NCBI GenBank assembly: GCA_023265025.1
Contig: JAHFUP010000062.1
Span: 1 to 32,357, forward strand
DNA: 32,357 bases
DNA from: Acidimicrobiia bacterium
GTDB lineage: Bacteria; Actinomycetota; Acidimicrobiia; Acidimicrobiales; AC-14
Direction: 5' to 3'
The notes under the pieces were generated by a model that saw only the letters and a list, made by a program, of their open reading frames with translations, did no database searches and was not told the DNA's origin. Positions 7,124-32,187 of this stretch are shown here, in pieces (position 1 is the stretch's first letter; every line of letters begins with the position of its first letter). A program made the position numbers and the translations under genes.

Positions 7124-8710
7124 CTACAGCGCCGGCAGCTGCTGGTGGCGGCCGATCAGCGGCGCGAGCGGGTCGCCGGCGCCGACGAGGCGGTCGAAGA
7201 CGGTGCGGAGCGTCCAGCGGTCCGGGCGGAGCTCGGGGTCGTCGAGCTCGTCCCAGCGGATCGGCACCGATACCGGCGCGCCGGCGGCGGGCCGGGGGCT
7301 GAACGGGGCGACGAGGGTCTTGTTGATGGCGTTCTGGGTGTAGTCGAGGCGGGCCAGGCCCTTGCGGCGGTCGGTGTGCCACTCCCAGCTGATCATCTCG
7401 GGCACGGTGTGGCCGACGGCCTTGGACACCTTCTCCACCCACTGGCGGGTGTCGGAGAACGAGTAGCCCGGGGCGATCGGGATCCAGATCTGCACGCCGC
7501 GCTTCCCGGTCACCTTCGGCATGCCGACCACGTGGAGGTGCTCCAGCGCCGTCCGGTACAGCCGGGCCAGCACCAGGATGTCGTCGAAGGTCGTGGTCGT
7601 CCCCGGGTCGATATCGATCAGGGCCCACGCCGGCTCGTGGACGTCCGGGATGCGCGACGTCCAGCCATGCAGCTCCAGCGCGCCGTAGTTGGCCATCCAC
7701 GCCAGCGCCGGCACGCTGTCGACCACCGCGTAGCGCCGGGTCTCACCCGGGTCGGCCTCGGTGTTGTCCCACGTGTGCAGCCAGTCGGGCGCGTGGCTGG
7801 GCACTTCCTTGTGCCAGAAGCCCGGCTTGTCCACGCCGTCGGGCGACCGGTACAGGTTGATCGGCCGGTCGTAGAGGTAGGGCAGCATCCACGGGGCGAT
7901 TCGGGCGTAGTAGCGGACCACCTCCCGCTTCGTCACCGGCGGCTCCCCGGGGAACAGGACCTTGTCGAGGTTGGTCAACTTCAGCTCGCGACCCTGGAGC
8001 GGCCACAAGCCGCCCTTGCCGCTCAGCGCGTCGAGGGCGGCCAGCTCGTCGGCCGACGGCGGGTCCCACGCCGGCCGGGCGGTGCTGCCGATGGCGATCG
8101 ACGCCTCGGCCGCCGGCAGGTCGCTGCGCCACAGCGCCTCGGGGGCGGCGGCCACCTCGTCGTTGGTGAGGCCACTCTTGACCGAGCGGGGGTACGCCTC
8201 GGGGTCCCAGCCGGCGACGGCGTCGTCGTCGTTCTTGTGCAGGAGGAGCCACTGCTCCTTCCCTGATGTGTCGCGGTCGCGACGAACCAGCACGAACCGG
8301 CCGGCCAGCTTCTCGCCCTGCAGGTCGAAGTGGAGGTCGCCCTTCTCGATGGCCTTCAGGGGGTCGCCGGGCTTGGCGTGCGACCACGTGCCCCAGTCCC
8401 ACACCACCACGTCGCCCCCGCCGTACTCGCCCTTGGGGATGACGCCCTCGAAGTCGAAGTACTCGACGGGGTGGTCCTCGACGTGGACCGCGAGTTGGCG
8501 GGCCTTCGGGTCGAGCGTCGGCCCCTTGGGCACCGCCCAGCTGACCAGCACGCCGGCCATCTCCAGGCGCAGGTCGTAGTGGAGGCGCCGGGCCCGGTGG
8601 CGCTGGACCACGAACCGGCCGGAGCCCGAGGGGGCGGTGCCGGCGCCGGCGGGCTCGGCGGTGACCGAGAAGTCCCGCTTGGCCCGGTAGGTGGCGAGCC
8701 GATCAGTCAT
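7124..8710 (-). CDS. ligD: LigD-type end-joining protein: 3'-phosphoesterase plus polymerase, no ligase domain
   Basis: 528 residues. The N-terminal 3'-phosphoesterase domain (about 10-175) has HRARRLHYDLRLE with His38, His44 and Asp46, then VEDHP with His80 and GVIPKGEYGGG. The C-terminal primase-type polymerase domain (about 235-525) has TNLDKVLFPGE, the metal-binding DIDPG, VTGKRGVQIW and DYTQNAINKT. The ATP-dependent ligase domain found between or after these in M. tuberculosis and Pseudomonas LigD is absent, so sealing must come from another ligase. These domains trim 3' ends and add nucleotides during non-homologous end joining with Ku; no ku gene is in the window. The ATG follows the PPK2 stop by 1 nt, so the two are translationally coupled. 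Confidence 0.92.
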   Translation of the reverse strand: MTDRLATYRAKRDFSVTAEPAGAGTAPSGSGRFVVQRHRARRLHYDLRLEMAGVLVSWAVPKGPTLDPKARQLAVHVEDHPVEYFDFEGVIPKGEYGGGDVVVWDWGTWSHAKPGDPLKAIEKGDLHFDLQGEKLAGRFVLVRRDRDTSGKEQWLLLHKNDDDAVAGWDPEAYPRSVKSGLTNDEVAAAPEALWRSDLPAAEASIAIGSTARPAWDPPSADELAALDALSGKGGLWPLQGRELKLTNLDKVLFPGEPPVTKREVVRYYARIAPWMLPYLYDRPINLYRSPDGVDKPGFWHKEVPSHAPDWLHTWDNTEADPGETRRYAVVDSVPALAWMANYGALELHGWTSRIPDVHEPAWALIDIDPGTTTTFDDILVLARLYRTALEHLHVVGMPKVTGKRGVQIWIPIAPGYSFSDTRQWVEKVSKAVGHTVPEMISWEWHTDRRKGLARLDYTQNAINKTLVAPFSPRPAAGAPVSVPIRWDELDDPELRPDRWTLRTVFDRLVGAGDPLAPLIGRHQQLPAL

Positions 8711-11226: not shown

Positions 11227-12204
11227 CTATGTCCCTTGCACGGCTCGCAGCCTCGCCGCCGCGTCCTCCGGCGCCACGTCGTTGATGAACGCCCCCGCCC
11301 CCAGCTCCGAGCCGGCGAGGTACTTCAGCTTCTCGGCGGTGCGGTGCAGCGGCGTGAACTCGATGTGGAGGTGGCTCACGTGCTGGTGCTCGCCGTCGTC
11401 GGTCGGCGCCTGGTGCATCGACATGACGTAGGGGAGCGGGAACCCGAAGAGGCGGTCGTAGGCCCGCACCACGGTCTGCAGGATCTCGGCCAGCGACCGG
11501 CGCTCGGGGTCGGTCAGCTCGAGCAGGCTCGGGGCGTGGCGGCGGGTGGCGATCTGGACCTCATAGGGGAACCGGGCGGCGAAGGGCACGAAGGCGAGGA
11601 AGCTGGTGTTGCCGGCGACGACCCGCACCTCGTCGGACTGCTCCCGGGCCACGACGTCGCAGTACACGCAGGTGCCGTGCGTCTCGTGGTGGGCTCTGGC
11701 CACGTCGAGCTTCCGTTTGGCCCGGGGTGGGATCTCCGGGTAGGCGTACATCTGGCCGTGGGGGTGGTGCAGCGTCACGCCGACGGCCACGCCGCGGTTC
11801 TCGAAGATGAAGACGTAGGCGACCTCGTCGCGGCTGCCGAGCTTCGCGTAGCGGTCGGCCCAGACCTCGACCACCTTGGCGATGCGCTCGACGTCCATGT
11901 CGCCCAGGCTCAGGTGGTGGTCGTCGGAGTAGACGACCACCTCATTGGCGCCGGCCGAGGGGGCCACGGGGTACAGCTCCGAGCCGACCACCGCGGGCGC
12001 CGGCGGGCGACGGCTGAGCGACGGGAAGCGGTTCTCGAAGACGACGACGTCGAAGGCGGGCAGGGGGATCTCCGTCGGCGGGTGCCCCTCCCGGGTCGGG
12101 CACAGCGGGCAGAAGTCGTCGGCGGGCAGGAAGGTGCGGTCCTGGCGGTGGCCGGCGAACATGCGCCACTCGCCCGTAACCGGGTCGTACCGCCTTTCCG
12201 TCAC
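11227..12204 (-). CDS. galT: Galactose-1-phosphate uridylyltransferase
   Basis: 325 residues from GTG 12204, which overlaps the stop of the GH2 gene (GTGA). HIT-superfamily enzyme of the Leloir pathway, exchanging UMP between UDP-glucose and galactose 1-phosphate. The active-site motif HPHGQ is at about residue 147, with metal-binding CPLCP near residue 29 and CVYCD near 172, and a later HLHIEF. The start MTERRYDPVTGEWRMFAGHR is a typical GalT N-terminus. It is the last gene of the GH1-GH2-galT operon; galK is divergent on the other strand, completing the route from galactosides to glucose 1-phosphate except for GalE and a transporter, which are not in the window. Confidence 0.93.
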   Translation of the reverse strand: MTERRYDPVTGEWRMFAGHRQDRTFLPADDFCPLCPTREGHPPTEIPLPAFDVVVFENRFPSLSRRPPAPAVVGSELYPVAPSAGANEVVVYSDDHHLSLGDMDVERIAKVVEVWADRYAKLGSRDEVAYVFIFENRGVAVGVTLHHPHGQMYAYPEIPPRAKRKLDVARAHHETHGTCVYCDVVAREQSDEVRVVAGNTSFLAFVPFAARFPYEVQIATRRHAPSLLELTDPERRSLAEILQTVVRAYDRLFGFPLPYVMSMHQAPTDDGEHQHVSHLHIEFTPLHRTAEKLKYLAGSELGAGAFINDVAPEDAAARLRAVQGT

Positions 12205-14801
12205 CGAGCGACCTCGTCGCGCCACGAGTAGGCCAACAGGGCCCGGCCGTCGTCCTTGACCGACGATTCCCTCCGCAACACCGACCGGGGTTCGGCCGCC
12301 CACCGCAGCACGTCGGCCAGCAGGGCCTGGGCCGCGGCGTCGCCGCCACTCAGGCGGTACTGGCAGAAGACGAGCCGGCCGGCGCCGACGGCGTGCGATC
12401 CCAGCACCGTCCCCGTCATGGCCCCCGGCACCGGTTTGTAGACCACGACCACCGGGGTGTCGGGGAACGCCGACCCGTCGATCAGCGACACCGCGCTGGC
12501 CGGCTGCACCGTGGCGTCCTCGGCCACCAGGACGGCCCGGCGGGGCAGGCTGGGCACGGCGCCGTGGTCCGTGGTGAACCGGAACACTGTCGACCCCCAC
12601 ACCGACGTCAGCGCGGCCAGCTCCACCGCCACCGGGTAGTGCCCGGCCGCCTCGATCGGTTGGGCCAGGATCACCACCACCTCGCCCCGGTCGAGCCGGG
12701 CCCGGGCCTCGGCGCCGGCGCCGGCGTCGAGCGCGTCCTCGGCGACCACGAACGGCCCGCCCGCGGGACGGCCCGCCGGCGTCACCACGTGGATGGGGTA
12801 GCGGTTCCCGGCCACCTCGTCGTCGCCCGAGCGCAGGCGCAGGACCAGGTCGTGGCTCCCGGGAACCGTGGGAGCGACCACCTCGACCGGCGGGTACGCC
12901 GTCACGGACCACCCCGCCAGATCGCCGAGCGGCACCACGGACACGGCCTCTCGAAAGCCCACTTCGAGCGTCACGCCGCCGAGCGCCGGCCCGTCGTTGG
13001 CCACGTGCAGCGGCGCCCGCACCGTGCCGCCGGCGGCGACCACCAGGCTGTCGAGCCGCAGCATCGGCAGGACGACCTTGTTGGCCCGGGCCATCTCCGC
13101 CACGGCCACGCGCTTGGGCCGGCGGTGCAGGTCGAGCAGCCCGTTGAACTCCTGGGGGACGTCGGTCAGCTCGGTCAGGCAGTAGCCGCCGATGTGGTCG
13201 TGGCGGCGGAAGACTTCGGTCTGGAGACGGTCCGAGATGCCCTGGTAGCGCTGGGTCCCGATGACGAACCGGGCCAGGCTGCCGGGCCACGGCGTCGACG
13301 CCAGCCCGTCGGCGTAGACCTGGCGCGGGTCCCAGAACGGGGCCGGGGAGAGCACGGGCATGTCGGGCAGGCCCCAGTCGCCGTACTCGGTGACGAACAG
13401 CGGACGCTCATCGCCGGCCCACGGGGCCGAGGAGGCCTCCAGCCAGTCGAGGTGGTCCCGGTGCAGCCGCCCGTACCAGTGGGCGGTGAGGATGGGGGAG
13501 ACGAACACCCGCGCCGGATCGGGCTCGATCCAGTCGTTCTCGATGACCGGCCGCGTCGGGTCGTGCTCGGCGACGGCGCCGGCCACCGCCCGGACGAACG
13601 CCTCGTAGCCCGGCCACTGGCGAGCCTCCCACCGGGCCTCGCCGACCTCGTTCATCGCCGACCACAGGATGATGCTGGGGTGGTTCCGGTCGCGCCGGAC
13701 CTGTTCCCGGGCCGCGGCCGCGCACCGGCGGGCCAGCAGTGTGTTCCCGCCCATCTCGGCATGCTCCAGCGGCTCGGCCACCGGGATGTCGCAGTGCAGG
13801 AACATGCCCAGCTCGTCGCAGACGTCGAGGTAGGTGGGGTCGAAGGCCTTGATGTGGAGGCGCAGGGTGTTGAAGCCCATGTCCCTGGCCGCGGTGACCT
13901 CGTCGACGATCTGGGCTCGGGTGCCCTCGGCGTAGAGGCGGTCGGCCGTGAAGCCCTGGACCAGTGCGCTCTTCATCCGGTAGGGGACGCCGTCCACCAG
14001 TAGGCGCTTGCCGGCCATCCGCACCGTCCGGAGGCCGAAGCGCACCTTCCGCACGTCGCTCGGGTGCCCGCCGGCGGCGACGTCGACGATGGCGATGTGC
14101 AGTGTCGGGTGCTCGGGGCTCCACCGGCCGGCGGTCGTCGGTCCGGGGCGCACCTCGAGCCGGCGCAGCTCGCCCGGCGCCAGCTCCGCCTCCGCCCCGG
14201 CCGCCATCCCGACCGCCCGGACGCCGGCCCGAACCGCCTGCGTCAACCCCGACCGGTTCTGCAGTCGCACGGTGACGGCTAGGTCGTCGGGGTCACCGTT
14301 CACGAAGACGTCGGTGATCACGACGGGCCCGTGCCGGCGCAGGGTCACGCTCTGCCAGATGCCGCCGTAGGTCATGTACAGGCTGGGCGGGCTCGGGAGA
14401 ACCGAGTTGGCCCACCCCTGCTTGCCGTGGGCCATGAGGGTGTGGTCGGGGTCGGCCAGGGGCGGGTCGACGACGCGCACGGCCAGGACGTTCTCGCCGG
14501 CCCGCAGCGCCGGCGTGGGGTCGAGCTCGAACGGCGTGTAGGGCTGGTCGTGGCCCCCGAGCGGCACCCCGTTGAGGCGGACGGTCGCCTGGTCCATCAC
14601 CGCGCCGAAGCGCAGCGTCCAGTGCCCGGAGACGTCGGTCAGGTCGAACCGCCGGCGGTACCAGGCCACCCCGTCGAGGTCGAGCCACCCCTGCGCCTCC
14701 CAGAGGCCGGGCACCCGGATGGGCTCGGGCACGAGGCCGTCGAGCGCCGCCGGCCGGTGGTCGCCGGGGAAGAAGTCCCAGACGCCGTCGAGCTCGATCA
14801 C
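12201..14801 (-). CDS. GH2-family beta-galactosidase/glucuronidase-type enzyme
   Basis: 866 residues from GTG 14801 (VIELDGVWDFFPG), overlapping the GH1 stop by 4 bp. Domains in order: jelly-roll sugar-binding domain (about 1-165, YRRRFDLTD, VRLNGVPLGGHDQPYTPFE), Ig-like domain (about 170-270) and catalytic barrel (about 275-560), followed by about 300 residues of C-terminal beta domains. The acid/base is in ILWSAMNEVGE (Glu near 383) and the nucleophile in FVTEYGDWG (Glu near 470). The neighbours galT and galK point to a galactose-releasing activity, but beta-glucuronidase or beta-mannosidase cannot be excluded by eye. There is no signal peptide, so it acts in the cytoplasm on imported glycosides. 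Confidence 0.88.
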   Translation of the reverse strand: MIELDGVWDFFPGDHRPAALDGLVPEPIRVPGLWEAQGWLDLDGVAWYRRRFDLTDVSGHWTLRFGAVMDQATVRLNGVPLGGHDQPYTPFELDPTPALRAGENVLAVRVVDPPLADPDHTLMAHGKQGWANSVLPSPPSLYMTYGGIWQSVTLRRHGPVVITDVFVNGDPDDLAVTVRLQNRSGLTQAVRAGVRAVGMAAGAEAELAPGELRRLEVRPGPTTAGRWSPEHPTLHIAIVDVAAGGHPSDVRKVRFGLRTVRMAGKRLLVDGVPYRMKSALVQGFTADRLYAEGTRAQIVDEVTAARDMGFNTLRLHIKAFDPTYLDVCDELGMFLHCDIPVAEPLEHAEMGGNTLLARRCAAAAREQVRRDRNHPSIILWSAMNEVGEARWEARQWPGYEAFVRAVAGAVAEHDPTRPVIENDWIEPDPARVFVSPILTAHWYGRLHRDHLDWLEASSAPWAGDERPLFVTEYGDWGLPDMPVLSPAPFWDPRQVYADGLASTPWPGSLARFVIGTQRYQGISDRLQTEVFRRHDHIGGYCLTELTDVPQEFNGLLDLHRRPKRVAVAEMARANKVVLPMLRLDSLVVAAGGTVRAPLHVANDGPALGGVTLEVGFREAVSVVPLGDLAGWSVTAYPPVEVVAPTVPGSHDLVLRLRSGDDEVAGNRYPIHVVTPAGRPAGGPFVVAEDALDAGAGAEARARLDRGEVVVILAQPIEAAGHYPVAVELAALTSVWGSTVFRFTTDHGAVPSLPRRAVLVAEDATVQPASAVSLIDGSAFPDTPVVVVYKPVPGAMTGTVLGSHAVGAGRLVFCQYRLSGGDAAAQALLADVLRWAAEPRSVLRRESSVKDDGRALLAYSWRDEVAR

Positions 14802-16066
14802 CGGACCACCAACTCGAGCGCCGGCGGGTCCTGCCAGTCCCAGTGGGTCATCTGCGGCATCCAGCCGCGCAGCCAGCCGTCCACCGGCGGCTGGAAGCGG
14901 TATGCGGGCAGGTCGGCCGCCCGGGCGCCCCGCGCCGCGGCGGTGTAGGACCTCGACATCGACGACGGCCGGCGGTCGAGGCGCTCGTCGAGCCAGAAGA
15001 CGCCCACCGGGTCGATGTCGCCCACGCTGCGGACGAGCAGCGAGTTCCAATCGGCGGAGTCGACGAACGGGAACCAGCAGTACCCGTCGATGGCGACGCC
15101 CCGGGCCCGGGCCACCTCGCACTGCTCCAGGGTGTACTTCAGCCAGGTGGCCCGGTCGCTGGCGAAGCCGCGGATGTTCGTCTCGCCGAGCGCGCAGGGC
15201 AGGCGGTAGCGGTCGGAGTACTCGACGATGAGGTTGGCGAGGGAGCCGGGGTCCGGGGACGTCGTGATGCCGCGGCCCCGGGCGTCGAGGTACCACCACT
15301 GGTTGTGGGCGTAGTAGTCGAGGCCCAGGACGTCGACATGACCGGGCCGCAGGTCGAGCAGGGGCTCGCCGCCGGCGGCCAGGACCTCGGCCACGAACGG
15401 CCGGCCAGGGTCGACGGAGCGCCCGAGGAAGAGGTCGAGGACGAAGAACCGGCGGTCGTTGGCCACGTCGGCTGGCGCCCACGCGCCCGGGTTGGCCGCC
15501 GACGCCCGTTCGCAGGTCTCGACGTAGAAGTGGCGGGCCGATGGCAGGAGGTCGCGGTAAGCCCGGCTGGCTTCGGTCAGGGCGGGCAGGACGTTGCGGG
15601 CGAGGGTGAGGAACCCCTTCACGCCCTCCAGGTGGGGCGGCCAGACGCCCATCTGGCCGCAGAGCAGGAAGGTGGTGAACGGCTCGTTGAAGAGCGTGTA
15701 CTCCTCGATCCAGGGGTAGCGGCCGGCGAACGCCTCCACGTAGCGCAGGTACGCCTCGCCGAAGCGGCGGTCGGCGAAGCCCCGCTTCAGCCAGCGGGGG
15801 TAGCTGGTGTGGTGGCACAGGTCGACGATGGGCCGCAGGCCGTGGTCGCGCATCCAGCCGAGGACCTCGTCGGTGGCAGCCCAGTCGAAGGTGCGCCGGT
15901 CCGGCTGGATCCGGTGCCAGCGGACCGGGTAGCGCAGCCGGGAGACGCCGCAGGCGGCCAGCAGCTCCAGGTCGGACCGCCAGCGGGCGATGTGGCCGGT
16001 CGTCTCGGCCACGTCGACGTCGAACGCCGGCTGGTAGGTCGATTCGAAGGCGCCGATGAACTCGAT
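14798..16066 (-). CDS. GH1-like family glycosidase with a probable ATC start
   Basis: 422 residues if started at ATC 16066. The first usable normal start, GTG 16012, lies 18 codons inside the conserved N-terminus (EFIGAFESTYQPAFDVDVAET), and a TAG stands immediately upstream of the frame, so only CGT CGC CCG ATC are available. TAGCGT lies exactly 6 nt before the ATC. The clan-A barrel shows LFNEP (acid/base Glu near 128) and LGETNIRG (probable nucleophile near 295). It is cytosolic, first in the operon with GH2 and galT, and probably a beta-glycosidase acting on galactosides. The nucleophile context differs from the usual TENG of GH1, so substrate and even family edge remain open. Confidence 0.82.
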   Translation of the reverse strand: MEFIGAFESTYQPAFDVDVAETTGHIARWRSDLELLAACGVSRLRYPVRWHRIQPDRRTFDWAATDEVLGWMRDHGLRPIVDLCHHTSYPRWLKRGFADRRFGEAYLRYVEAFAGRYPWIEEYTLFNEPFTTFLLCGQMGVWPPHLEGVKGFLTLARNVLPALTEASRAYRDLLPSARHFYVETCERASAANPGAWAPADVANDRRFFVLDLFLGRSVDPGRPFVAEVLAAGGEPLLDLRPGHVDVLGLDYYAHNQWWYLDARGRGITTSPDPGSLANLIVEYSDRYRLPCALGETNIRGFASDRATWLKYTLEQCEVARARGVAIDGYCWFPFVDSADWNSLLVRSVGDIDPVGVFWLDERLDRRPSSMSRSYTAAARGARAADLPAYRFQPPVDGWLRGWMPQMTHWDWQDPPALELVVR

Positions 16067-16068
16067 CG

Positions 16069-16086
16069 GGCGACGCTACCGTCGCC
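16069..16086. promoter_or_regulatory. Compact bidirectional promoter between GH1 and galK
   Basis: Only 24 bp separate ATC 16066 (minus) from GTG 16091 (plus). GGCGAC (16069-16074) and GTCGCC (16081-16086) are inverted repeats. The minus -10 TAGCGT (16078-16073) and the plus -10 TACCGT (16077-16082) share the central TA. Both transcripts would be leaderless or nearly so. Confidence 0.5.
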
Positions 16087-16090
16087 ACCT

Positions 16091-19995: not shown

Positions 19996-22293
19996 TCAGT
20001 CGACGCAACGGGCGGCGATGGCGGCCTGGCCCACGCTCACACCGCCGTCGTTCGGCGGGAGGAGGCGGTGCACGAGCACCCGTAGGCCGGCGGCTTCGAG
20101 CGCACCGACGACCACGTCGGTGAGGCGGGCGTTCTGGAACACCCCGCCGCTCAACGCCACGGTGTCGAGGCCGTTGTCGGCGGCCGCCCGCCGGGCGGCG
20201 CCGGCGACGCCCCGGCCGAGGCCGGCGTGGAAGCCGGCCGAGATCTCGCCGGCCGGCGTGCCCCGGTCCCGCTCGGCCACGACGGTGGCGAGCAGCGGCC
20301 CGGGGTCGAGCAGCAGGCCCTCCGGGCCGGCGACGACGTCGAGCTCGTAGCCGCCGGGGCCGGCGAGGGGCTGGCCGGCGGCGGCCGCCTCCAGCTCGAT
20401 GGCGGCCTGGGCCTCGTAGGTGATGCGGGTGCGCAACCCGAGCAGAGCCGCCACCGCGTCGAATAGGCGGCCGGCGCTGGACGTCCGCAGGACGTCGGGG
20501 CGCAGGGCCAGCCCGAGCACCGCGGCCCAGCGGTCGTCCACCGTGCGCCCGTAGCGCTCGGCGGCCTCGGGCCCGAGGGTGGCGGCCAGCCAGGCGACGG
20601 CCATGCGCCACGGTTCCCGTGCCGCCCGGTCGCCGCCGGGCAGGGCGACCTGGAGGAGGTGGCCCACCCGGCGGAAGCCGTCGAGGTCAGCGACCAGCAG
20701 CTCGCCACCCCAGGCGGTCCCGTCGGTGCCCATCCCGAGGCCGTCGAAGGCGACGCCCAGGACCGGCTCGGTCCACCGGTGCTCGACCAGGCAGGAGGCG
20801 ATGTGGGCGTGGTGGTGCTGGACGCCGACCGCCGGCAGGTCGAGTTCGGCTGCGAACTTGGTCGAGAGGTACTCGGGGTGCAAATCGTGGGCCACCACCT
20901 CCGGCGTGACGCCGGTGAGCCCGCACAGGTGGTCGACCGCCTGCAGGAACGACCGGTAGGCGGCCAGGTGCTCGAGGTCGCCGATGTGGTGGCTGGCCAC
21001 CACGTTGTCGCCCTTGGCCACCGCCACCGTGCTCTTGAGCTCGGCACCGACGGCCAGGACGTGGCGGCGGGCCGGCGTCGGCAGCCCGATGGGCTCGGGC
21101 GCGTACCCCCGCGACCGCCGCACCATCTGGACGCGGGCGGTGCCTGCCCGAACAACACTGTCGTCGCCGCGGATGTGGATGCCCCGGTCGTGGGTGAGGA
21201 TGGCGTCGACCATGGGGCCGAGGCGGACCAGGGCGTCGGTGTCGTCGTGGGCGATGGGCTCATCAGACAGGTTCCCGCTGGTCATGACCAGCGGCCGAGC
21301 CACGCCGGCGAGCAGTTGGAGGTGCACCGGGGTGTAGGCGAGCATGAGGCCCAGTTCCGGCAGGTTGGGGGCGACGCCGGTGGCGATCGGGGCCTCGTGC
21401 CGGCGGGGCGCCAGCACGATCGGCCGGCGAGGGGACGTGAGGGCCTCCTCAGCGTCGGCACTCAGGTAGCACAGTGACCGGGCCATCGGCAGGTCGACCA
21501 TGAGGGCGAAGGGCTTGTCGTCGCGGGCCTTGCGCCGGCGCAGCTCGGCGACCGCGGCTGGGTCGGTGGCGTCGCAGGCCAGGTGGTAGCCGCCCAGGCC
21601 CTTGACGGCCAGGATGCGGCCGGCGCCCAGGAGCTCCACCGCCGAGTCGAGGGCGTCGCCGGCCTTGGCCAGCAACCCGCCGTCAGGCGCCACCAGGCTG
21701 AGCTGGGGGCCGCAGGCCGGGCAGCACGTGGGCTCGGCGTGGAAGCGCCGGTCGGCGGGGTCCTCGTACTCCCGCCGGCAGTCGGCGCACATGGCGAAGC
21801 CGGCCATGGTCGTGGCCGCCCGGTCGTAGGGGATCGACCGGATGATCGTGTACCGCGGCCCGCAGTTGGTGCAGTTGACGAAGGGGTAGCCGAAGCGGCG
21901 GTCGGCGGGGTCGAACAGCTCCCGCTCGCAGTCGGCGCAGGTGGCGACGTCGACGGGCACGGCCACCGCCGGCGCCCCGGCCACCCGGCTGTCGACGACG
22001 GTGAACCCGGTCTCCCCGGTGGCCGCCAAGGCCTCGACGTCCAGCGTGTCGATCCGGGCCAGCGGCGGCGCCTCGTCGACGAGCCGGCGGGCCAGCTCGT
22101 CCAGCGCCGGCGCCGGTCCCTCCCCCTCCAGGATCACCCCGAGGCTGTCGTTGCCCACCCACCCGGAAAGCGCGAGGTCAGCGGCCAGCCGGTAGACAAA
22201 CGGCCGGAACCCGACCCCCTGCACAGTGCCGGTGACCCGCAGGCGCCGGCGTACGAGGTCGGGGTTCACGCCGCCGGCCGCTGACGGCGCCAA
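19996..22293 (-). CDS. hypF: Carbamoyltransferase HypF ([NiFe] hydrogenase maturation)
   Basis: 765 residues from TTG 22293, which has GGGAG 5 nt upstream; GTG 22269 is an alternative. Domains in order: acylphosphatase (about 18-100, VTGTVQGVGFRPFVYRLA), two zinc fingers (CADCERELF...CTNCGP and CADCRREYE...CPACGP), YrdC-like (about 205-390, ILAVKGLGGYHLACDA) and Kae1-like with VQHHHAHIASCLVEH and AFDGLGMGTDG. HypF makes thiocarboxamide on HypE from carbamoyl phosphate, the source of the CN ligands. Length is typical. A hairpin separates it from hypE, so its expression may differ from hypCDE. Confidence 0.95.
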   Translation of the reverse strand: MAPSAAGGVNPDLVRRRLRVTGTVQGVGFRPFVYRLAADLALSGWVGNDSLGVILEGEGPAPALDELARRLVDEAPPLARIDTLDVEALAATGETGFTVVDSRVAGAPAVAVPVDVATCADCERELFDPADRRFGYPFVNCTNCGPRYTIIRSIPYDRAATTMAGFAMCADCRREYEDPADRRFHAEPTCCPACGPQLSLVAPDGGLLAKAGDALDSAVELLGAGRILAVKGLGGYHLACDATDPAAVAELRRRKARDDKPFALMVDLPMARSLCYLSADAEEALTSPRRPIVLAPRRHEAPIATGVAPNLPELGLMLAYTPVHLQLLAGVARPLVMTSGNLSDEPIAHDDTDALVRLGPMVDAILTHDRGIHIRGDDSVVRAGTARVQMVRRSRGYAPEPIGLPTPARRHVLAVGAELKSTVAVAKGDNVVASHHIGDLEHLAAYRSFLQAVDHLCGLTGVTPEVVAHDLHPEYLSTKFAAELDLPAVGVQHHHAHIASCLVEHRWTEPVLGVAFDGLGMGTDGTAWGGELLVADLDGFRRVGHLLQVALPGGDRAAREPWRMAVAWLAATLGPEAAERYGRTVDDRWAAVLGLALRPDVLRTSSAGRLFDAVAALLGLRTRITYEAQAAIELEAAAAGQPLAGPGGYELDVVAGPEGLLLDPGPLLATVVAERDRGTPAGEISAGFHAGLGRGVAGAARRAAADNGLDTVALSGGVFQNARLTDVVVGALEAAGLRVLVHRLLPPNDGGVSVGQAAIAARCVD

Positions 22294-29314: not shown

Positions 29315-29905
29315 ATGTTCGTTCGCCGTGGCGTGGCATTGGCCGGCGTGCTCGGTGCCGCCATCACCGTGGTGGCCGGGGCGGCGGCGTTCGCCTGCAC
29401 CAACCTGGCCACGTTGAACCTGAGCGCCAGCTCCGGCAAGACGGGCGACGTGATCACCGTCACCGGCTCGTCGTACCGGATGCCGAGCGGCGTCACGACC
29501 GGCGTGCAGTTGCGCTGGAACGCCCTCGACGGCCCGGTGCTCGCCGAGGTCACCCCCGACAAGGTCGGCAACATCTCGGCCAGCGTCACCATCCCCCAGG
29601 CTGCGCCCGACAACTACGTGATCGTGGCCATGCTCCGCGACGCCAAGGGCGCCGACACCTCGGGCACGCCGTCGCGGGCCCAGTTCCAGGTCGTCGGCGG
29701 CGCCGGTAGCGCCGCTCCGTCGCCGGTCATCGCCCAGCAGACGCCGGCGGCCGGCGCGTCCGGGAGCAGCTCGAGTGCACCTCTCGCCCTGCTCGTCGGC
29801 TTCGGCGTGCTCGGCCTGGTCCTGTTCGGGAGCGGCATCGTGGCTGCGGCCCGGGCCACCCGCACCAGCACGGCGCCGGCGGCGGCCCCTGCCCGTCGCG
29901 ACTGA
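29315..29905 (+). CDS. Membrane-anchored Ig-like surface protein
   Basis: 196 residues. ATG 29315 is chosen for the GGGGGG 7 nt upstream; an in-frame ATG at 29300 adds five residues. An N-terminal signal (about 1-27) ends at AFAC, which could also be lipobox-like. Residues 28-130 form a beta-sandwich of the IPT/TIG or Ig type (LNLSASSGKTGDVITVTGSS, GNISASVTIPQAAPDNYVIV). A Gly/Ser/Pro linker leads to a C-terminal helix (about 155-178) and a short basic tail, but there is no sortase motif. It precedes the Asp-box protein by 22 bp. Adhesion or a structural role at the surface is inference. Confidence 0.7.
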   Translation: MFVRRGVALAGVLGAAITVVAGAAAFACTNLATLNLSASSGKTGDVITVTGSSYRMPSGVTTGVQLRWNALDGPVLAEVTPDKVGNISASVTIPQAAPDNYVIVAMLRDAKGADTSGTPSRAQFQVVGGAGSAAPSPVIAQQTPAAGASGSSSSAPLALLVGFGVLGLVLFGSGIVAAARATRTSTAPAAAPARRD

Positions 29906-29927
29906 CCCCGCCTCACCCACGACGACC

Positions 29928-31559
29928 ATGAACGCCCGTCGCGTCGCTTGCCGCGCCCTCGCTGCCACCACCGCGGCCTCGGCCATGATGCTGTCGCCCG
30001 CCGGCGCCGCCCCTGACGCGGCGGCGCCGAAAGTGACGGGCGCGGTCCAGGTCACCGACAACCCCAACACCGTCCGGGCCCACATCGTCCCGCTGATGAC
30101 CCGGAACCCCATCAACGGTGAGCTGGTCATCGGCGAGGTCGACGCCCGGGGCACCCGCGAGTGCGCGGTGCACATCTCCTCCGATGGGGGACGCAGCTGG
30201 TCGCTCGGCGGCTCCTTCATGGTCAAGCCGTTCACCGACTGCTCGATCGGCGCCGAGTTCGGTCCCAGCATCCAGCCGTTCTTCGACCGTGACGGCGTCC
30301 TCAACGTGGCCTTCGCGGCCAACGACCCGGCCAGGCTGGCGTCATCCGACCGGCCGACGACCACCACCGACGTCCGGGAGGACATCCCCCGCAACTCCTA
30401 CCTGGCCCGGTCCACCGACGGCGGGCGCACGTTCACCACGGTGCTGGTGGCCGCCGGCAAGGAGGGCAGCACCCAGACGGCCTACATCGACGCTCCCGCG
30501 GGCGCCGTCGACCCCCTGAACCCCCGCAACATCTACGTCGCGTGGGGCCAGGGCGACTGGAGCAACGAGAAGGACCCGATCCGCACGATGGTGGCGGCGT
30601 CCACTGACGGCGGCAAGACCTTCGGGACGCCGGTGGAGATCAACGGCGGGATGGGTGCCGACTACACCTTCCTCGTCGTCGACGGCAAGGGCGTGGTCCA
30701 CGCCACCTTCTGGTCGCGCGGCGTCGGCACCGAGGCCTGGGACCCCACCCAGGCCCGCATCAACGGCCGCCGCAACCCCACCCCCCTCGTGCACGCCTGG
30801 TCGGCCGACAACGGCAAGACGTGGGAGCGCAACAACATCGACCCCGGGAACCAGCGGGTGTACCGGGCCGCCCCGCTGGCCGTCGACCTCAAATCCGGCG
30901 CCCTGTACGCGGTGTGGCACCAGTACCCCGACCCGTTGAACTTCGAGGCCAACCGCGACGGCAAGGACCGGGTCGACGTGTATTTCTCGGCCTCGACCGA
31001 CGGCGGGCGGACGTGGTCCAAGAAGGTCGTCGTGAACGAGGGCCCGCAGAGCGGCGTCAACCATGAGCTGCCCGGGATCGCCGTCGCCCCCAACGGCCGC
31101 ATCGACATCGCCTGGTACGACTACCGCTTCAGCCCTCGGGCGGGTAGCGGGGCCGGTGTGCAGGACGTGTTCTATGCATCGTCCACCGACCAGGGCCGCA
31201 CGTTCTCCCGCAACGTGCGGGTTACCGACCGCTCGATCGACCGCTCCATCGGGGTCTACGCCGGCGCCATCGGCGTGAACATCAACGTCGGGATCACCTC
31301 CACCGACTCGGCGGTGTACCTCACCTGGCAGGACACGCGCAACGGCCGCCCGAACACCCAGTCCGAGGACATCTACAGCGCGTCGATCGTCCTGGCCGGC
31401 ACCGCGGCGGACGCCGGCACGGCGGCGTCGGACGACGACGGCATCGCCGGCTGGGTCTTCCTCGTCTCCGGGATGGCCATCGGGGCCGGCGTGGCCTGCG
31501 GCCTGGTGTGGCTAGCGGTGTCCCGTTCCCGGTCGAACCCCACAGGCTCGCCGGCCTGA
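29928..31559 (+). CDS. Exported Asp-box (sialidase-like beta-propeller) protein with C-terminal membrane anchor
   Basis: 543 residues from ATG 29928. The signal peptide (about 1-28) ends at AGAA. Six Asp boxes (SxDxGxxW/F) are visible: SSDGGRSW, STDGGRTF, STDGGKTF, SADNGKTW, STDGGRTW and STDQGRTF, so a six-bladed propeller fits. An arginine triad and a Tyr/Glu pair of true sialidases cannot be confirmed by eye, and many Asp-box propellers are not sialidases. A C-terminal helix (about 505-528, WVFLVSGMAIGAGVACGLVW) and tail SRSRSNPTGSPA anchor it. It lies 22 bp after the Ig-like protein and probably shares its transcript. A surface glycan-related function is plausible but unproven. Confidence 0.78.
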   Translation: MNARRVACRALAATTAASAMMLSPAGAAPDAAAPKVTGAVQVTDNPNTVRAHIVPLMTRNPINGELVIGEVDARGTRECAVHISSDGGRSWSLGGSFMVKPFTDCSIGAEFGPSIQPFFDRDGVLNVAFAANDPARLASSDRPTTTTDVREDIPRNSYLARSTDGGRTFTTVLVAAGKEGSTQTAYIDAPAGAVDPLNPRNIYVAWGQGDWSNEKDPIRTMVAASTDGGKTFGTPVEINGGMGADYTFLVVDGKGVVHATFWSRGVGTEAWDPTQARINGRRNPTPLVHAWSADNGKTWERNNIDPGNQRVYRAAPLAVDLKSGALYAVWHQYPDPLNFEANRDGKDRVDVYFSASTDGGRTWSKKVVVNEGPQSGVNHELPGIAVAPNGRIDIAWYDYRFSPRAGSGAGVQDVFYASSTDQGRTFSRNVRVTDRSIDRSIGVYAGAIGVNINVGITSTDSAVYLTWQDTRNGRPNTQSEDIYSASIVLAGTAADAGTAASDDDGIAGWVFLVSGMAIGAGVACGLVWLAVSRSRSNPTGSPA

Positions 31560-31563
31560 TTCG

Positions 31564-31839
31564 TCAAAGCGTCGCCTCGGCGACGACGGCAATGGTGATC
31601 TCGTCGGCTTCCGGCCCGGCCATCCACATGACGTACCAGTCGCCCGTTCCGACCGGCGTGCTACGTAGCTGTCCGTAGCGCTCGGTGGCGAACTGGCGGG
31701 TGCGCAGGCGCGGGTCGAACGGGTCGACTTCGAGCCTCCCGAGGGTCCGGAGCGCGGCCCGGTGGACGTCGGCTAGGGCCGGCTCCGCTTCGAGTCGGGT
31801 CATCGCCTGGTCGGCAGCTGGGAGCCAGAGCAACTGCAT
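31564..31839 (-). CDS. ParE/RelE-like toxin
   Basis: 91 residues from ATG 31839 (MQLLWLPAADQAMTRLE); a longer frame to 31938 would cross the antitoxin promoter. The pattern is that of small RelE/ParE-fold toxins: N-terminal strand, two helices (ADVHRAALRTLGRLEVDPFD), then LRTRQFATERYGQLRSTPVG, DWYVMWMAGPEADEITIAVV with the strand-rich end. It is transcribed away from the antitoxin-like gene at 31921, with the 81-bp gap holding tandem repeats. A TACCCT -10 box lies 9 nt before the ATG. Toxic activity and target (mRNA or gyrase) are inferred from the fold only. Confidence 0.65.
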   Translation of the reverse strand: MQLLWLPAADQAMTRLEAEPALADVHRAALRTLGRLEVDPFDPRLRTRQFATERYGQLRSTPVGTGDWYVMWMAGPEADEITIAVVAEATL

Positions 31840-31864
31840 GATGAGGAAAGGGTACGAGAATCGT

Positions 31865-31895
31865 TGCCCAGTTTGGCGGATGCCCAAATTGGCGG
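31865..31895. promoter_or_regulatory. Tandem 15-bp repeats in a divergent promoter
   Basis: TGCCCAGTTTGGCGG (31865-31879) and TGCCCAAATTGGCGG (31881-31895) match at 13 of 15 positions with a 16-bp period, and each is an imperfect palindrome (GCC...GGC). They lie between the -10 boxes of the toxin (31849-31854, minus) and the antitoxin-like gene (TACAGT 31908-31913, plus). Confidence 0.6.
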
Positions 31896-31920
31896 GGTGT
31901 GGCCCGCTACAGTACGGGTG

Positions 31921-32187
31921 ATGAGCGCATACCCCCACCGCGAAGAGATCGTGCTCGATGGTCGTCGCCGGACCAGCCTGGCCCGGGTCGGCGTCGCCAG
32001 TGATAGCCGCTACATCGCCGAGACACTCGAGGACGGCTCGGTCCTGCTGACGCCAGCCGTGCTGATCGAGAAGTGGGAGCTGGCCGCGCTGACCAACCCT
32101 GAGATCCGGTCCGCTCTCGATGCCGCCCTCACGACCTCGCGTGACCAGCTCGTCAGCCGGGGGTCGTTCGCCGGTTACGCCGACTGA
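31921..32187 (+). CDS. Antitoxin-like DNA-binding protein (AbrB/SpoVT type)
   Basis: 88 residues from ATG 31921. TACAGT lies 7 nt upstream and no Shine-Dalgarno is seen, so it is probably leaderless. The N-terminal half (EEIVLDGRRRTSLARVGV, RYIAETLEDGSVLLTPAV) has the swapped-hairpin pattern of AbrB/SpoVT-type antitoxins; the C-terminal half (WELAALTNPEIRSALDAAL) is a helix suited to wrap a toxin. It is divergent from the ParE/RelE-like toxin, and the tandem repeats between them are likely its operators. Most toxin-antitoxin pairs are co-directional, so this arrangement is unusual. The pair is inferred from position. Confidence 0.65.
   Translation: MSAYPHREEIVLDGRRRTSLARVGVASDSRYIAETLEDGSVLLTPAVLIEKWELAALTNPEIRSALDAALTTSRDQLVSRGSFAGYAD

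Follow-up and report, generated by a model that had tools for sequence, protein, structure and literature searches.

The window, the whole 32,357-nt stretch analysed here, lies on contig C24 of a 5.4-Mb draft genome (G000). As originally predicted, it carries at 31564-32187 two small genes with intact ORFs that are transcribed divergently, with a gap of 81 nt between their ATGs. The features of the locus are:

31564..31839, minus strand: toxin-like gene, ATG start, 91 aa, predicted RelE/YoeB-type fold, ORF intact
31849..31854, minus strand: -10-like TACCCT of the toxin gene, 9 nt to the ATG, near-leaderless (sequence, family pattern and the TANNNT consensus in the available text of PMC3898074)
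31865..31879, plus strand: candidate operator repeat 1, TGCCCAGTTTGGCGG (repeat search; motif site at 31865)
31881..31895, plus strand: candidate operator repeat 2, TGCCCAAATTGGCGG (repeat search; motif site at 31881)
31908..31913, plus strand: -10-like TACAGT of the antitoxin gene, 7 nt to the ATG, leaderless (sequence, family pattern)
31921..32187, plus strand: antitoxin-like gene, ATG start, 88 aa, AbrB/MazE-like N-half and YefM-tail-like C-half, ORF intact

With -10-like elements 7 nt and 9 nt from the two ATGs, near-leaderless starts are found on both sides, as had been proposed; a generic sigma-70 scan returned 0 promoters. The gene at 29775-31559 on the plus strand, which encodes a 594-aa BNR-repeat protein (PF13088, E 6.5e-16), is convergent with the toxin-like gene, and the two end 4 nt apart.

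The product of the left gene is, by confident model prediction, a protein with a RelE/ParE-superfamily fold of the RelE/YoeB type. The model, built with 19 relatives (pLDDT 93.8, pTM 0.83), has the secondary structure order strand-helix-helix-four strands, and its top structural matches are RelE/ParE-superfamily toxins over the full length: M. tuberculosis RelK (Z 13.1, 84 residues, 2.1 A) and YoeB (Z 12.9) in VIA-align, and the YoeB/ParE toxin 6n90_B (E 9.6e-4) at the top in Foldseek. MazF is absent among the listed structural matches. These two fold comparisons agree with the original description of the protein as a RelE/ParE-like toxin. In family searches the window toxin matches 0 Pfam or NCBIfam families at cut-off; one of 16 toxin relatives matches PF05016 (E 1.8e-4), and the toxin-family profile gives a weak YoeB match among PDB sequence profiles (E 0.061). 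The activity is probably RelE/YoeB-like mRNA cleavage, that is, of an mRNA interferase, and ParE-like gyrase inhibition may also be compatible with the modelled fold.

The window toxin has the family-conserved R46 and W72. At three of eight invariant or near-invariant family positions in alignment A4 it deviates, W59, Y85 and G87 being replaced by R, V and A, and its neighbour in the tree, L019, has a very long branch. These three departures make loss of toxicity in the window copy a live rival to an addiction module: the pair would have a toxin-antitoxin origin, and the RelE-like protein would now be a non-toxic co-repressor of the AbrB-like protein in a divergent autoregulatory switch. RelE-fold toxins serve as co-repressors in known systems, which supports such a switch, as do the intact ORF and the retained operator motif of the window. 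It is nonetheless an unlikely account, since a paralogous toxin on contig C172 of the same genome keeps all three positions, so that at most the window's subclade would be affected, and since the toxin gene is still paired with its antitoxin gene, as addiction predicts.

The antitoxin-like protein appears, on modest profile evidence, to be of two sources, AbrB/MazE-like in its N-half and YefM-tail-like in its C-half. The family alignment (truncated L027 excluded for profile comparison) displays the pattern D-x-R-[RG]-R-V-x-L ... DG-x-x-x-L-x-P, which we take to be reminiscent of SpoVT-AbrB domains. The comparison profiles were built from members in 21 related genomes, using 28 of 30 PF04014 loci and 17 of 20 PF02604 loci. 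Against the AbrB/MazE profile the N-half scores 20.1, a value that 0 of 60 column shuffles reach, with a low hhalign probability of 29.8%, and against the Phd/YefM profile 5 of 60 shuffles score as high as it does. For the C-half the corresponding counts are 0 of 60 shuffles with the Phd/YefM tail profile (hhalign probability again low, 15.8%) and 49 of 60 with the MazE profile. The unsplit antitoxin gave an hhalign probability of 64.5% for Phd/YefM, above the 27.6% for MazE, and a Phd/YefM reading of the whole protein was dropped for the N-half when AbrB/MazE fitted better after splitting. The two-source reading is held at modest strength because the hhalign probabilities of the halves are low and the unsplit protein favoured Phd/YefM. 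An AbrB-type antitoxin, as first proposed, is thus modestly supported by profile for the N-half, and the proposal had missed the resemblance of the C-half to YefM tails.

The window antitoxin matches PHROG 19414, "antitoxin from a toxin-antitoxin system", at E 1.7e-3 and a mycobacterial relative matches it at E 5.3e-11; no Pfam or NCBIfam family is matched by the window antitoxin at cut-off. Queried singly, 25 family members gave no Pfam match, and seven of the 25 matched NCBIfam MazE_PemI (best E 0.037). The monomer model is of moderate quality (pLDDT 77.5, pTM 0.49) with a strand-helix-strand-strand order; fold searches with it listed no AbrB or MazE chain (best Z 3.4) and are uninformative on the fold either way. 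The antitoxin profile found nothing credible among PDB sequence profiles. Single-sequence Pfam, NCBIfam and PADLOC matches such as Cas_Cmr3 were set aside as noise, PADLOC giving nothing credible.

Antitoxin relatives occur in 23 of 298 sampled genomes of the window's order (26 places, of which all but L029 and L033 satisfy the antitoxin profile made later), in 15 of 396 genomes of the phylum sample, and at 34 loci in named genome contigs, mostly of Acidimicrobiia and other actinobacterial bins, which makes an acidimicrobial actinobacterium the probable host of the window. A single-sequence search found toxin relatives in 14 of the 298 genomes of the order, and just one of nine other genomes of the window's taxonomic family has one. 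The same genome carries a second divergent pair, on contig C172, at 40% and 36-38% identity. As sole query the window toxin found no relative in the genome contigs and no match on plasmids; the window antitoxin found no match in phages and four plasmid records. Mycobacterial queries reached further into mobile elements, the antitoxin matching 16 plasmid and 54 phage records and the toxin two plasmid and 0 phage records.

Ten of 15 toxin-anchored places, window and paralogue included, pass a toxin profile that was built partly on the places it scored (L041, L042, L044, L045 and L048 fail), and the antitoxin gene adjoins in all ten. From the antitoxin side, 70 distinct proteins were pooled from the order sample, the phylum sample, plasmids and named genome contigs, "distinct" meaning that they differ in the first 60 residues; the near-copies L094, L095 and L097 are counted separately. 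Of these, 29 have a divergent toxin gene, the order for which a survey of relatives had been proposed, 17 have a co-directional toxin gene downstream, and 24 are without a detected toxin; convergent and toxin-first pairs number 0 among the 70. The resulting 46 pairs include three weak toxin matches (L028, L061, L077) and the broken-looking toxin of L035. Among the 24, four lie at contig ends (L058, L079, L086, L111) and five have a toxin-like ORF by eye, divergent in L015 and L075 and co-directional in L030, L034 and L059. As a yardstick, Phd/YefM loci of related genomes have a co-directional RelE- or PIN-like ORF directly downstream in 17 of 20 by eye, the other three being impossible to call in this way.

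Protein distances of toxin and antitoxin correlate (r 0.76, n 41), as they do in a non-redundant set (r 0.45, n 19), and none of 2000 permutations reaches the observed value in either set. Together with the ten of ten toxin-anchored places, the correlation supports the proposed partnership of the two genes. Of other partners, whose presence in relatives would have spoken against it, none recurs among the loci inspected, with the reservation that 24 of 70 antitoxins have no toxin by profile and that one PIN-like ORF was seen, these calls being partly by eye. This ORF follows a distant antitoxin relative (L063, 1438-2221) in place of a RelE-fold toxin, a possible partner swap. At L014, L020, L025, L089 and L092 antitoxin relatives stand without any toxin gene detected, and these are possibly solitary antitoxins.

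Divergent pairs are also present on plasmids of M. intracellulare subsp. chimaera, M. abscessus and M. fortuitum, where they are annotated "hypothetical protein" and one antitoxin gene is absent from the annotation. Co-directional pairs occur on Kitasatospora and Amycolatopsis plasmids, their members being likewise "hypothetical protein" or unlisted. Among the 54 phage records matching the mycobacterial antitoxin, 52 are of Gordonia phages. In SoilAssassin, Attis and LonelyBoi (four records) a divergent ORF, annotated "hypothetical protein", sits between the antitoxin relative and the integrase gene, and the toxin profile matches this ORF weakly (E 0.007 in Attis, 0.017 in LonelyBoi, search size 20000); the SoilAssassin and Attis records label the antitoxin relative "MazE antitoxin". 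Regulatory pairs are common beside phage integrases and on mobile elements, and the positions of these plasmid and phage pairs would suit a real divergent pair that is no toxin-antitoxin system at all, for example a mobile-element regulatory pair re-using the RelE fold. Such a pair is very improbable, given that YoeB/RelK toxins are the best fold match over the full length, that the antitoxin C-half resembles YefM tails, and that many of the members come from genome contigs belonging to the window's own order.

Divergence is conserved across the family, and gene order flips about six times on its tree. A tree built from the joined sequences of 41 pairs, 26 of them divergent and 15 co-directional (L017 retained, L035, L062, L077, L028 and L061 excluded), requires six changes of gene order, with a bootstrap range of 5-7; at least two changes are forced by strongly supported branches, and many deep forks are open. 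An antitoxin-only tree gives six changes and a toxin-only tree eight. A single clade of co-directional pairs is rejected (p-AU 1e-11 under the model used, with long branches present). From the tree changes and the correlated protein distances it follows that gene order has been altered at least twice in a pair of genes that are inherited together.

The two gene orders differ in how the toxin gene starts. Promoter and motif counts excluded the divergent loci L017, L035, L062 and L077 and the co-directional L028 and L061, because of an uncertain toxin start, a broken toxin or a weak match. A TANNNT element stops 6 or 7 nt short of the toxin start in 18 of the 25 divergent loci, while any other distance from 0 to 59 is seen in zero to two loci, and a Shine-Dalgarno-like core is found at two of the 25 starts; in the window the TANNNT-type element is at 9 nt, compared with the 6-7 nt of the family. 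None of 15 co-directional toxins has TANNNT at any of these distances. Instead, 15 of the 17 co-directional pairs have the toxin start no more than 7 nt from the antitoxin stop, a closeness that resembles translational coupling and is missing in divergent pairs. The suggestion that divergence would uncouple the dose of the two proteins fits this difference. Antitoxin starts of the leaderless type occur in both orders: seven of the 25 divergent loci, including the window, have the element at 7-8 nt, and seven of the 15 co-directional loci have it at 6-7 nt. In M. tuberculosis the consensus mapped for -10 elements is TANNNT, and leaderless starts are found in 32 of the 37 toxin-antitoxin gene pairs that have a primary start site, according to the available text of PMC3898074. 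As far as that text goes, leaderless starts are thus ordinary for such modules, and what is distinct here is the toxin's own leaderless start. Divergent toxins are accordingly predicted from their upstream sequences mostly to have a leaderless promoter of their own.

Between the two -10-like elements lies the candidate operator, 10 nt from that of the toxin gene and 12 nt from that of the antitoxin gene, so a bound protein could block both promoters. Its 15-bp repeats (31865-31879 and 31881-31895) are identical at 13 of 15 positions with a period of 16, and none of 1000 sequences made by dinucleotide shuffling of the gap contains a 13/15 direct repeat. Self-similarity of the gap is unremarkable alone, lag 16 being matched in 119 and lag 8 in 286 of 1000 shuffles; firmer evidence for the window operator comes from the repeat itself and from its agreement with the relatives' motif. 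This 12-bp motif, T[AG]CCCaAtTGCC, was learned from 38 relatives with the window and C172 withheld, and over both strands of the 32-kb window it ranks 31881 first and 31865 sixth. With 14- and 16-bp models the window sites fall outside the top eight. When the window gap was shuffled 5000 times, a pair of equally strong sites appeared in 20 of the shuffled sequences and a single site matching the best in 131. The tandem operators originally proposed are therefore backed by a motif to which the window did not contribute, in the 12-bp model only.

The same motif recurs in both gene orders. Same-strand T[AG]CCC pairs at 8-bp spacing number 10 in divergent loci versus 0.08 expected and seven in co-directional loci versus 0.04 expected; a spacing of 8 or 16 is found in seven of 25 divergent and nine of 15 co-directional loci, some of which are close relatives. 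Motif-free self-similarity likewise peaks at lag 8 (z 6.9 divergent, z 5.0 co-directional), and the peak is absent in phage Attis. The family operator thus seems to have an 8-bp tandem period, and the 16-bp period of the window may correspond to two units. In phage LonelyBoi the gap between the divergent genes 39 and 40 contains a tandem array of 8-bp units (L164, 1262-1305; 5.5 copies, 72% matches), which is perhaps a clear form of the family operator. That an AbrB-type regulator merely happens to lie next to an unconnected small gene is scarcely credible: although no toxin was detected near 24 of the 70 antitoxin relatives and Pfam and NCBIfam name neither gene, 46 of 70 antitoxins are paired, as are all ten profile-passing toxin-anchored places, the distances of the two proteins are correlated, and the operator motif is common to both gene orders.

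The locus is probably a divergent two-gene module that works like a type II toxin-antitoxin system with a shared candidate operator. The left gene would encode the RelE/YoeB-fold toxin, a likely mRNA interferase. Judging from the profiles, the AbrB-like domain of the antitoxin would contact DNA and its YefM-like tail would wrap and mask the toxin. Antitoxin dimers, with or without toxin, may occupy the tandem operator at 31865-31895 and so close both leaderless promoters together; a drop in antitoxin would then open both. Each protein would be made from its own leaderless mRNA, and the toxin:antitoxin ratio would be set by the strengths of the two promoters and by leaderless translation rather than by gene order or translational coupling. 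The one-operon trait, customary in type II systems but no strict criterion for them, is missing in the window and in 29 of the 46 pairs and is present in 17 of 46. For the wider group we lean towards a toxin-antitoxin family that is new to description: gene order has repeatedly flipped between operon and divergent, one conserved operator of 8-bp units would be bound by the antitoxin, and the divergent toxin would have its own leaderless promoter, a shared array on two promoters replacing translational coupling.

Several known systems share parts of this module. The E. coli prlF-yhaV pair has what appears to be the same fold-class pairing, of an AbrB-superfamily antitoxin (PrlF) with a RelE-superfamily toxin (YhaV), and PrlF is a DNA-binding protein that regulates this operon according to the available part of PMC5408214. 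However, prlF-yhaV is an operon, and the two genes here diverge, each with its own promoter-like element, an order shared by 29 of the 46 pairs; Pfam and NCBIfam family matches give no link between the two, the comparison being by description. The yefM-yoeB system and relJK of M. tuberculosis resemble the present module in predicted toxin fold (Z 12.9 and 13.1) and, by profile, in the antitoxin C-tail, and they differ in that the antitoxin N-half here fits AbrB/MazE and does not fit Phd/YefM above shuffles. With mazEF the antitoxin N-half appears to be shared, but the toxin partner here has a predicted RelE fold. In divergent restriction-modification systems such as Ecl18kI, harmful and protective proteins are made from divergent genes and the protective one regulates (PMC3874152, available portion); these are enzymes that act on DNA, unlike a RelE-fold toxin with a protein-binding antitoxin. 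A survey, in so far as its text is available, counted AbrB/MazE adjoining RelE 27 times (PMC2701414), reverse toxin-antitoxin gene order is described in the accessible part of PMC7157771, and plasmid pGD21-2 carries a toxin-antitoxin system, not necessarily the pair found here, according to the part of PMC8092301 at hand. An AbrB-type antitoxin with a RelE-fold toxin, reverse order, and divergent restriction-modification with a protective regulator are thus already known from these partial texts. A divergent type II pair was not recognised in a literature search whose sources were in part incomplete and from which subscription journals mostly fell outside, so that absence is unproven.

Searches by named families or for co-directional neighbours would presumably miss such pairs. 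The usual account of toxin-antitoxin modules is that of a single operon whose antitoxin is produced before the toxin and in larger amount. Both gene orders with a similar operator motif constitute a natural experiment on what sets the toxin:antitoxin ratio, and recurrence of the arrangement in related bacteria and on some plasmids makes it a natural test of toxin and antitoxin balance. Elsewhere in the window, on the minus strand, lie genes for a LigD-type phosphoesterase plus primase-polymerase (7124-8710), a 1295-aa member of glycoside hydrolase family 2 (12201-16088) and a HypF-like carbamoyltransferase (19996-22293).
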